Assembly (NCBI GenBank): GCA_900113385.1
Contig: FOPE01000005.1
Coordinates: forward strand, 1 to 64,000
Origin: Lachnospiraceae bacterium C7
Lineage (GTDB): Bacteria > Bacillota > Clostridia > Lachnospirales > Lachnospiraceae
Direction of reading: 5' to 3'
DNA: 64,000 nt
The translations under genes were made by a program, and so were the position numbers. Under the pieces are notes generated by a model. It saw only the letters and a list, made by a program, of their open reading frames with translations. It did not search any database and was not told where the DNA came from. Shown one piece after another: positions 42,044-45,376 of this stretch (positions are counted from its first letter, which is position 1; each line of letters begins with the position of its first letter).

Positions 42044-42064
42044 CAAATAAAAAAAGGAGAAACT

Positions 42065-43588
42065 ATGACTAAAAAAAATAATATAAAATCCATCGTAGGA
42101 ATTGTGGCAGTCATTGCTGTTTGCGTGATAGCTGCTATTGCAATTCATGGAAACGGCAAAAAAAATGCCCAAAGCATTAAAAGTGTTAAAGATATTGCAG
42201 GACACAAAATAGGCGTACAGCTTGGTACTACAGGCGATATTTTAGCAAGTGATTATGAAAATGATAAAAAAGGTTCAACTGTTGACCGTTACAACAAGGG
42301 AGCTGATGCGGTTCAAGCATTATCTCAGAATAAAGTAGATTGCGTAATTATTGATGAGGAACCAGCTAAAGCTTTTGCATCACAAAATAAAAATGTTAAG
42401 ATTTTAAAAGAGGCTTTTGCAGATGAATCGTATGCTTTTTGTATTGCAAAAGATAACAAAGCGTTAACAAACAATGTTAATGATGCACTTGAAAAATTGA
42501 AAAAAGACGGAACAATTGATGCAATTAGAGATAATTATATTGGAGAAAATGCAGGCAAGAATCCATATAAATCTAAAAATGTTTCTAGAGAAAATGGAGA
42601 ACTTGTAGTTGCTACTAATGCAACTTTCCAGCCATACGAATATTATAAAGGTGGAAAAGTTGTAGGAATCGATATGGATATTGCACAGGCTGTTTGTGAT
42701 GAATTACACATGAGCATGAAAATTGAAGATATGGAATTCGATTCAATTATTACAGCAGTTCAAACAGGTAAAGCGGATATAGGAGCTGCTGGTATAACAG
42801 TTACAGCAGAAAGAAAGAAAAATATAGATTTTTCTAATTCATATACAACATCAAAACAAGTAGTTCTTGTAAACAATGGTAAAAGTGCAGGATCATCACT
42901 TAGTGTTGGAGAAAAATTCAAAAACAACTTTATTAAAGAGCATAGATATCAATATATTTTAAAAGGTCTTAAGACTACATTATTTATTACAGTTTGTGCC
43001 TTGATAATTGGTATTTTACTTGGTTCATTACTTGCAATTATAAGAACTACACATGATAGAAATGGTGGACTTACTATATTAAATATTTTAGCTAAAATAT
43101 ATTTGACAATTGTTCGAGGAACACCTACTATGGTACAACTTCTTATCATATATTACGTAGTGTTTGCATCAACAAATATTAGCAAAACACTTGTCGCTAT
43201 AGTAGCTTTTGGCTTAAACTCAGCAGCTTATGTTGCAGAAGTTGTTAGATCAGGTATTATGTCTGTTGATAATGGACAGTTTGAAGCAGGACGAAGCCTA
43301 GGTTTATCATACAAAACAACAATGTTGTCAATTGTATTTCCACAGGCATTTAAAAACATTTTACCAGCCCTTGGAAATGAACTTATTACTCTTTTAAAAG
43401 AGACTTCAATAAGTGGTTACATTGGTCTTGTTGATTTAACAAAAGGAAGCGATATTATCAGAAGCATCACATACGATGCAATGATGCCACTTGGTATTGT
43501 AGCAGTTATTTACTTAATAATTGTTATGATACTTACAGCTTTAGTTAATAAGTTAGAGAGGAGTTTAAGAAAGAATGAGCGAAACTAA
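42065..43588 (+). CDS. Amino-acid ABC transporter: substrate-binding domain (apparently circularly permuted) fused to permease
   Basis: Residues 10-28 form a membrane anchor. Residues 36-160 match the second lobe and C-terminal end of a SBP_bac_3 binding protein ([60 protein letters not shown]). Residues 177-271 match its first lobe ([54 protein letters not shown]). In ordinary proteins the first lobe comes before the second, so the domain looks circularly permuted, cut at the hinge. Each half occurs once and the total length (about 235) is that of one domain. Residues 295-500 are a HisM/GlnP-type permease with five membrane helices and the EAA loop [21 protein letters not shown]. The next gene supplies the ATPase. 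Confidence 0.88.
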
Positions 43589-44315
43589 TGTTTTATTAGA
43601 TATTAAAAATTTAAAAAAGAGTTACGGAAAACATGAAGTTTTAAAAGGAATTAGTACTACAATTTCAAAAGGAGAAGTTATAGCAATTATTGGACCATCA
43701 GGTTGCGGTAAGTCAACTTTCCTTAGATCACTTAATCTACTAGAAGAGCCTACAAGTGGAACTATTCTTTTTGAAAATGAGGATATTACTAACAAGAATA
43801 TTGATATTGATCATATGAGAGAAAGAATTGGAATGGTTTTCCAGCAGTTTAATCTTTTCCCTAATATGACAATTAAGAAAAATATAATGCTTGCCCCTGT
43901 TAAGCTTGGAAAAATGACTAAAGAGGAAGCTAGCCAAAAGGCTGAAGAATTATTAGAAAGAATTGGTCTTAGTGATAAAGCTGATAGTTATCCAGACATG
44001 CTTTCAGGTGGACAAAAACAGCGTGTTGCAATTGCTAGAGCACTTGCTATGAATCCGGATGTTATGCTTTTTGATGAGCCTACATCTGCACTTGATCCTG
44101 AAATGGTAGGTGAGGTTTTAAGTCTTATGCAAGAACTTGCTAAAGAAGGAATGACAATGGTTGTTGTAACACATGAAATGGGATTTGCAAGAGAGGTAGC
44201 AAATCGTGTATTATTTATTAATGAAGGTGTGATTAGTGAGGATGATGTTCCAGAGAATATCTTTACTAATCCAAAAAGTCCAAGATTGCAAGAATTTTTA
44301 AGTAAGGTGTTATAA
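43575..44315 (+). CDS. Amino-acid ABC transporter ATP-binding protein (GlnQ/HisP type)
   Basis: It powers the transporter encoded by the preceding gene, which it overlaps by 14 bases. Motifs: Walker A GPSGCGKS near residue 38, Q-loop [12 protein letters not shown], signature LSGGQKQR, Walker [15 protein letters not shown] and the switch His in VVVTHEMGF. The 246 residues are typical of polar-amino-acid uptake ATPases. AGGAG lies before the ATG. Which amino acid is carried is unknown. Confidence 0.95.
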
Positions 44316-45376
44316 TGGAAAAAATATTAACTATATTAATAGTGAGCATCATACTTATTGCATTAATCGCTTTTACCGCAGGGTTAACTGTGGTAAAAGT
44401 GGTTTTTAAAAAAACATTTGCATCATTTAAATATGATCCATATGTGGCAATTGCAAGGTATGATTTTTATGAGAACGAGCTACACAGAGAGCTCGTTAAT
44501 TTTGAATCCGGGAAAAATATATTACAAGGATATTTTTACAAAGGTAAAAATAAAGATAGTGTAACAAATAATAAATTAATAGTTTTTTCTCATGGAATTT
44601 GGTCAGGTCATGAAGACTACATGACCTTATTGAAGTGGTTTATAGATCATGGAATGAGTGTATTTGCTTATGATTACACAGCTTATAACAATAGTAAAGG
44701 CTATTCAGCAAAAGGATTACCACAATCAATGCTAGATTTGAATTGTGCTCTTGATTTTATTGAAAAAGATAAAGAATTATCTAAGTACGAGATATGTTTG
44801 TTAGGTCATAGTTGGGGAGCTTATGCTTCAACTGCTGTTTTAAAATTCAAACATAACATAAGTAAAGTTGTGGCCATGTCTGGATTTGATAGTCCTTTAG
44901 AAATTTCAATGTCAACAGCAAGCAAACTTTTAGGTACGCAATCAGCATTGTTGAAACCATTTGTAAAGGCTGAGAACAAGAGGATTTTTGGTAAACAAGC
45001 GAATGTAAAGGCTACCGATTCAATTAATTCTTCAGAGGTACCAGTATTAATTATACATGGTGCAGGAGATAAATTTATAGAATATGATAAAACAGCACTA
45101 ATAGCTAAAAAAGATGAAATTACAAATCCTAATGTTTCCTATTATACAATTAATAAAGAAAAAATAGATAACCATAATTCATATATCAATAATGTTGAGG
45201 CTGCAACTTACATAGAAGAGATTGTGGCAGATTTTAAAGAGTTAGAAAAGCAATATGGTAAGGAAGGCGTTCCAAAGGACGTGAAGGATAAATTTTTCGA
45301 AGATATAGATAGAAATAAATCAAATCAAGCTAATGTAGAATTATGTCAAAGAATTTATGATTTCATAATAGTATAG
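44315..45376 (+). CDS. Alpha/beta hydrolase with N-terminal membrane anchor
   Basis: A hydrophobic helix at residues 4-25 anchors the protein, with the enzyme probably outside the cell. The fold is clear: LIVFSHGIWSGHEDYM for the oxyanion region, nucleophile Ser in LLGHSWGAYAS, Asp in HGAGDKFIEYD and a candidate His in DNHNSYINNVE. The C-terminal 60 residues are helical and charged. It shares one base with the transporter ATPase stop (TAATG), so it is co-translated with it. The substrate is unknown; cleavage of a compound whose product is then imported is one possibility. Confidence 0.82.
   Translation: MEKILTILIVSIILIALIAFTAGLTVVKVVFKKTFASFKYDPYVAIARYDFYENELHRELVNFESGKNILQGYFYKGKNKDSVTNNKLIVFSHGIWSGHEDYMTLLKWFIDHGMSVFAYDYTAYNNSKGYSAKGLPQSMLDLNCALDFIEKDKELSKYEICLLGHSWGAYASTAVLKFKHNISKVVAMSGFDSPLEISMSTASKLLGTQSALLKPFVKAENKRIFGKQANVKATDSINSSEVPVLIIHGAGDKFIEYDKTALIAKKDEITNPNVSYYTINKEKIDNHNSYINNVEAATYIEEIVADFKELEKQYGKEGVPKDVKDKFFEDIDRNKSNQANVELCQRIYDFIIV

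Follow-up and report, generated by a model that had tools for sequence, protein, structure and literature searches.

Organization of an amino-acid importer locus

The DNA that we analyzed is a 64,000-nucleotide stretch from Lachnospiraceae bacterium C7, hereafter called the window, and all features described at this locus lie on its forward strand. Positions 42065-43588 constitute a single intact reading frame of 507 codons, running from ATG to TAA, that encodes a probable membrane anchor, a binding domain with permuted lobe order and a permease in one chain of 507 amino acids. A likely ribosome-binding site (AGGAG, 42055-42059) precedes the ATG. The N-terminal hydrophobic segment (residues 4-28, 42074-42148), which forms a helix in a low-confidence part of the full-length structural model, is a probable membrane anchor or signal. 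Because a lipobox pattern scan of this N-terminus gave no match, the anchor is probably an uncleaved helix. The segment is followed by lobe 2 of an SBP_bac_3 domain together with the natural C-terminal helices (residues 36-161, 42170-42547), by a linker that connects the natural C-terminus to the natural N-terminus (residues 162-175, 42548-42589), and by lobe 1 (residues 176-272, 42590-42880), which carries the first hinge strand at its end; both lobes were delimited by profiles, PDB-sequence matches and the model. A short linker (residues 273-282, 42881-42910) then leads from the hinge strand into a permease domain of the PAAT/HEQRo type (residues 283-506, 42911-43582), which is recognized by PF00528 and by the HEQRo-type NCBIfam model TIGR01726 (70.1 bits against a cut-off of 42.2).

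The end of the fusion gene overlaps by 14 bases with an ATPase gene (43575-44315) that is identified by both Pfam and NCBIfam. Its best NCBIfam model is GlnQ, and since the score of 321.2 bits falls below the equivalog cut-off of 379, we call the product GlnQ-like only. Immediately upstream of the importer lies a gene for an FlK-like (fluoroacetyl-CoA type) thioesterase (PF22636, 41654-42043), and a downstream alpha/beta hydrolase gene (44315-45376) begins on the base with which the ATPase gene ends. A search for the SBP_bac_3 family in the same genome found three places, namely the fusion gene, a stand-alone protein of 284 amino acids with canonical lobe order (L233), and one inside a 1045-amino-acid frame.

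The binding domain carries its two lobes in swapped order

Domain databases conceal the lobe order of this protein. Pfam lists two SBP_bac_3 stretches and one permease stretch, with a PF00497 score of 126.5 bits against a cut-off of 26.4, and nothing in this output reveals how the lobes are arranged. Likewise, in two proteins with permuted domains in tandem (L026 and L209), Pfam takes the lobe 1-lobe 2 pair in the middle for an ordinary domain. The arrangement emerges from matches to individual proteins and models. When compared with PDB sequences by phmmer, residues 9-106 of AncQR (4zv1) match residues 177-273 of the window protein (76.6 bits), and AncQR residues 103-233 match residues 32-161 (79.2 bits). 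A single canonical protein is thus matched by both lobes, in a crossed fashion. The NCBIfam matches are crossed in the same way, with positions 23-126 of TIGR01096 falling on residues 176-279, and positions 134-263 of NF008426 falling on residues 31-162. Finally, lobe-specific profiles find lobe 1 once and lobe 2 once; as a positive control, these profiles assign the canonical lobe 1-lobe 2 arrangement to 43 of the 124 ORFs annotated in related loci. Judged by the canonical 1-2 order, the window protein, whose order is 2-1, is a permuted variant rather than a canonical member of the family.

An earlier, sequence-only reading of this DNA had proposed that lobe 2 precedes lobe 1, each occurring once, and the crossed matches and lobe profiles bear this out, with lobe boundaries that were correct to one or two residues. 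The short linker between the lobes was also recognized correctly, but it measures approximately 14-16 residues and not 17. We agree that this is a real circular permutation, in which the natural ends are linked and the chain is opened just past the first hinge strand, and that the domain is tethered on both sides, by the N-terminal anchor at lobe 2 and by the permease at lobe 1. A cut at this position would leave open one of the two places where the chain crosses from lobe to lobe.

Structure prediction, which had been suggested as a check, models the binding domain as one unit (pLDDT 90.7, pTM 0.85, from an alignment of 14 sequences). The model contains two long strands, formed by model residues 87-95 and 229-238, the second being the C-terminal end of the modeled domain. 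From the alignment and the known fold, we take these to be the hinge strands, which they match in location. In the full-length model (pLDDT 73.5, pTM 0.59), confidence is too low to position the domain relative to the permease. Foldseek, which aligns in chain order, fits the model poorly to whole binding proteins (TM approximately 0.35-0.5, identity mostly 7-17%) and better to a single lobe, domain 1 of TmArgBP (identity 31-32%, TMt 0.61-0.63, though with a high rmsd of 11-12 Å), a pattern that fits, indirectly, with a permutation. Among PDB sequences, 96 were matched at 1e-10 by a profile of 55 permuted domains. No chain among the best 60 of these resembles a permuted member, and the only permuted-order stretch across both lobes in this subset is in the GlnPQ construct 6h30, a tandem, where it bridges two domains.

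These data also bear on the possibility that, in a homodimeric importer, each lobe 2 has its partner lobe 1 in the opposite chain, such that there is no permuted monomer. The importer is probably a homodimer, as judged from GlnPQ, and the lobes are joined by a linker, both of which would accommodate such a domain swap. However, the monomer is modeled as one unit with high confidence, 61 stand-alone relatives described below have the lobe-2-first order (59 of them with a lipobox), and, in a more distant tandem group, one complete ORF at locus L222 consists of just one lobe 2-lobe 1 module, which is 80% identical to the first unit of the tandem protein at L216. We therefore regard a swap between chains as improbable.

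Distribution and forms of the permuted proteins

A search of the genus matched 46 of 60 genomes at 1e-20, several of them with full-length matches in a single frame. Lobe annotation of the ORFs at 127 loci revealed 44 with the order lobe 2-lobe 1-permease, 26 with lobe 2-lobe 1 and 43 with lobe 1-lobe 2, and the remaining ORFs were five in which lobe 1 sits between two parts of lobe 2, one tandem of order 2-1-2-1-permease and five fragments. Of the distinct proteins at 189 loci, 44 are permuted and fused to the permease, 58 are permuted and stand alone, 42 are canonical and 13 are split. The final set for the close family comprises 44 fused proteins (the window included), 56 stand-alone proteins with the same main cut, five with a later cut, 56 canonical proteins and 17 of the split form, whose cut lies inside lobe 2 so that lobe 2 flanks lobe 1 on both sides. 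Proteins whose lobe 1 scores below 110 bits are left out of these close-family counts and of the lipobox, linker and site tallies given here. A search for other proteins of equal order, another check suggested by the sequence-only reading, thus yielded 105 distinct close proteins with lobe 2 first, the window included. Of these, 44 are fused to a permease and 61 (56 with the main cut and five with the later cut) stand alone; three near-identical pairs are among the 105. No permease fusion was found among the single-domain close relatives that are canonical (0 of 56) or cut in lobe 2 (0 of 17).

Lobe identity to the window protein is 54-75% for fused, 39-66% for stand-alone, 42-61% for canonical, 49-52% for later-cut and 36-56% for split proteins, and the nearest named record is from Lachnobacterium bovis (L063, 76%). 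The spacing of the parts is nearly constant, with 17-23 residues between the profile ends of lobe 2 and lobe 1 in the 105 distinct proteins, and 12-17 residues between those of lobe 1 and the permease in all 44 fused proteins, including that of the window. In stand-alone genes of the main form, the hinge strand (QVIIVRK) or a point close to it marks the end. A strict lipobox pattern is present in 59 of 61 stand-alone lobe-2-first proteins, 28 of 42 fused proteins and 54 of 55 canonical proteins, and several of the 14 fused proteins that miss the strict pattern have what resembles a near-lipobox.

The sequence-only reading had raised the doubt that the gene might be a misassembly or a chimera of two genes. 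A related alternative is that the protein is the remnant of a GlnPQ-like tandem, with residues 36-160 representing half of a lost domain. Tandem canonical domains do occur in the family (L204), and the GlnPQ structure 6h30 matches residues 38-267 of the window protein across its two domains. Nonetheless, the order recurs in 105 distinct proteins with near-constant linker lengths, in the single-contig genomes G016, G035 and G052 (lobe 2-lobe 1-permease in each), and on the complete Ruminococcus bicirculans chromosome (L072, lobe 2 first), and dN/dS values are low in the pairs tested. Conservation of the order across relatives refutes misassembly or chimerism as a general reading, and we consider any version of this explanation to be highly implausible.

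The swapped order reaches wider than the sequence-only reading had stated. A permuted-domain profile passed 1e-50 in 71 of 299 genomes from the same family (sampled at about one per genus, with the genome of the window among them). By our tally from the match table, 62 of the 299 hold a permuted-order match that spans the profile, and 20 of these 62 hold the fused form, as judged by open-frame length. This tally leaves out a canonical tandem (G254), canonical-type pieces (G178, G183, G267 and G283), matches with the pattern of the split form (G089 and G114) and partial matches (G226 and G268). With all forms mixed, 112 of 391 genomes pass 1e-40 in a class-level sample, and five of 398 pass 1e-45 in a phylum-level sample. 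Open frames longer than 500 were also examined as candidate canonical fusions: 18 of the 19 fetched proved to be separate binding-protein and permease ORFs, and the other was a fusion of three tandem canonical domains.

Several individual loci are unusual in other ways. A contig labeled as a Prevotella metagenome-assembled genome (binned as Bacteroidota) carries a permuted fusion that is 59% identical to the window protein (L069:2782-4503, forward strand), reflecting either horizontal transfer or a binning error. In Roseburia porci, a stop codon separates lobe 2 from lobe 1 of a permuted gene (L067:2974-4539, forward strand), which is either recent damage or a sequencing error. Two stand-alone permuted binding-protein genes are adjacent at L046:505-2265 (forward strand), and a 619-amino-acid protein (L215:1686-3542, reverse strand) has a type I Peripla_BP_4 domain ahead of its fused, permuted type II domain.

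Cut points and evolutionary origins

Beside the canonical form, three permuted forms exist, with the chain cut after the hinge strand (as in the window), slightly later, or inside lobe 2. The five later-cut proteins (L071, L112, L114, L116 and L122) are cut approximately 10-20 residues beyond the main cut, and they begin at the GVQ strand and retain a tail past the hinge strand. The cut inside lobe 2 falls at profile positions of approximately 70-74.

Phylogenetic analysis places the later-cut group inside the canonical proteins with SH-aLRT values of 97 and 96 in two trees, and of 87-90 in a thinned broad tree in which the group is represented by a single row. Forcing all lobe-2-first domains into one clade costs 88.2 lnL (p = 0.0102), and the same constraint on a broader set of 111 domains (254 before removal of near-copies above 72% identity) costs 313.7 lnL (p = 3e-66). 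On these alignments, a single origin of all lobe-2-first domains is rejected. The starred branches require at least six changes for the lobe-2-first order, where a change is a gain or a reversal in an unrooted tree; these are quick trees of approximately 212 columns with long branches and many open forks, and both the number and the direction of order changes are uncertain. The tree groups were defined after part of the data had been seen. L063 (a copy of L005) and domains that were too short or of odd order are left out of the trees, L004, L118_1695 and L069 are also left out of the 88.2-lnL test, and these three and L061 are left out of the second tree (SH-aLRT 96).

It appears that the lobe order changed several times, with differing cut points. 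An alternative model holds that a single ancient permutation was followed by several returns to canonical order, and indeed change counts on an unrooted tree cannot separate gain from loss. This model seems unlikely to us, however, both because the later-cut group lies within the canonical proteins and because the cut points differ among permuted forms, and a return to canonical order yields no new cut points.

How might such rearrangements arise? We propose that a canonical gene was first duplicated in tandem and in frame, that the leading lobe 1 and the trailing lobe 2 were then lost, and that loss of the stop codon ahead of the permease gene finally gave the permuted fusion. A protein of 973 amino acids in genome G254 (L204:713-3631, reverse strand) has three canonical SBP_bac_3 domains, 89-91% identical to each other, fused to one permease. 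We suggest that this triple tandem is the expected duplication step made visible as an intermediate, and that trimming it would give a permuted protein.

In a more distant group, a permease is fused to a tandem of lobe 2-lobe 1 modules, of which there are two or three. The tandems at L209, L210 and L213 continue into an ATPase (confirmed by Pfam in L209), and the 1145-amino-acid frame of L209 (1675-5109, forward strand) thereby places two permuted modules, a permease and an ATPase, nearly a complete importer half, in one chain. We considered an alternative pairing in which these tandems contain a nested canonical module. This is countered by the two L222 ORFs, which match the units of the L216 tandem one-to-one: the complete ORF corresponds to unit 1 as noted above, the next ORF, truncated where the fetched sequence stops, is 83% identical to unit 2, and crosswise identities are 31-34%. 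This correspondence supports lobe 2-lobe 1 as the module of the tandems.

Predicted function and the role of permease fusion

The residues expected to line the amino-acid site, whose roles we presume from GlnH, are nearly invariant regardless of chain order. F188, T55 and D97 are identical in all 105 lobe-2-first, all 56 canonical and all 17 cut-in-lobe-2 proteins, and R250 is identical in 105 of 105, 55 of 56 and 17 of 17, respectively. N185, at a place where GlnH has Asp, is common to nearly all close relatives, and some of the canonical proteins have other residues at T247 and G54. For close pairs, dN/dS is 0.023-0.156 in the 11 of 13 that were computable, the other two being saturated at synonymous sites; seven of these 11 pairs exceed one synonymous change per site. 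The named binding-protein NCBIfam models listed for the window protein all score under their own cut-offs. The simplest reading of these sequence data is that the gene would encode an amino-acid importer subunit of ordinary kind whose chain order is unusual.

Taken together, these observations make it highly probable that the fusion supplies both the binding domain and the permease of an ABC importer for polar amino acids, and that this binding domain is a naturally occurring circular permutant. By analogy with GlnPQ, two fusion chains and two ATPases would form one importer. The binding domain would close on its amino acid and dock on its own permease, and ATP would drive import. Lobe 2 would be suspended from the N-terminal anchor, and lobe 1 would lead through the hinge strand and the 12-17-residue linker to the permease.

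A further hypothesis is that the permutation was selected because it allows the two lobes to be tethered separately to the membrane and couples lobe closure to the permease. Fusion to a permease occurs in 44 of the 105 lobe-2-first proteins and in none of the single-domain canonical or cut-in-lobe-2 relatives (one canonical triple tandem is fused as well), and the fused linkers are uniform in length. A study on Treponema likewise considered permuted proteins to be probably tethered (PMC4990184). However, 61 of the 105 proteins have no permease fusion, which indicates that permutation is independent of fusion. Moreover, canonical relatives are equally lipid-anchored by the lipobox pattern, and the sample was largely drawn with a fused permuted query, which favors fused permuted matches. 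The coupling idea thus stays conjectural, and we find it doubtful. A more inclusive proposal, which we offer only tentatively, is that gut Clostridia have, in their amino-acid binding proteins, a hotspot of natural circular permutation, in which one family went through canonical, lobe-2-first (two cut points) and cut-in-lobe-2 orders by tandem in-frame duplication, and that the hinge-opened form was selected for separate lobe anchoring and direct permease fusion.

Comparison with known systems

GlnPQ of Lactococcus lactis is likewise an amino-acid importer with an SBP_bac_3 domain before the permease in one chain, and its linker to the membrane part has 19 residues (PMC8025302), compared with 12-17 in fusions of the window type. 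GlnPQ carries two canonical domains in tandem (6h30), whereas the window protein has one domain with reversed lobes. Among the hallmarks of fused PAAT importers, the window locus has the HEQRo-type permease, the SBP_bac_3 domain and the GlnQ-type ATPase, and lacks tandem canonical domains.

Relatives with 36-75% lobe identity to the window protein come in four chain arrangements, one canonical and three permuted. Because their binding-site residues are nearly equal, it should be possible to test in matched natural proteins how chain order affects binding, closure and docking. The lobe-swapped relatives therefore amount to an experiment of nature on how much re-ordering a protein tolerates without losing its function.

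By way of analogy, the chain of ionotropic glutamate receptors also leaves an SBP-type domain into a membrane part. These receptors are not permuted, and their pore is inserted between lobe segments.

The sequence-only reading knew of no permuted fusion of this kind. A natural permutant among ABC binding proteins has already been described, although it is a sugar-binding protein of type I. This protein, TpMglB-2 (Tp0684), is a glucose-binding lipoprotein of Treponema assigned to 'Type Ic / Cluster Bc', for which ligand binding was shown (PMC4990184). It is the only natural permuted binding protein among the full-text matches listed in our literature search; none of these matches, which mostly excluded subscription papers, described a binding protein for amino acids that is permuted in nature. 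TpMglB-2 is membrane-tethered and has relatives in Gram-positive bacteria, many of them gut commensals; both of its ends are in the N lobe, the permutation adds a fourth crossing, and its permease is separate. TpMglB-2 alone merited a structure paper (PMC4990184). The window protein shares with it a permuted order of lobes or strands in an ABC binding protein, and differs in its type II amino-acid family fold (SBP_bac_3) as opposed to a type I sugar fold. Because of this difference, the window protein may work like a Type Ic / Cluster Bc protein but is not a member of that group. The family of the window protein is further distinguished by a hinge cut that opens a crossing, by several cut points, and by the fusion of some members to a permease.
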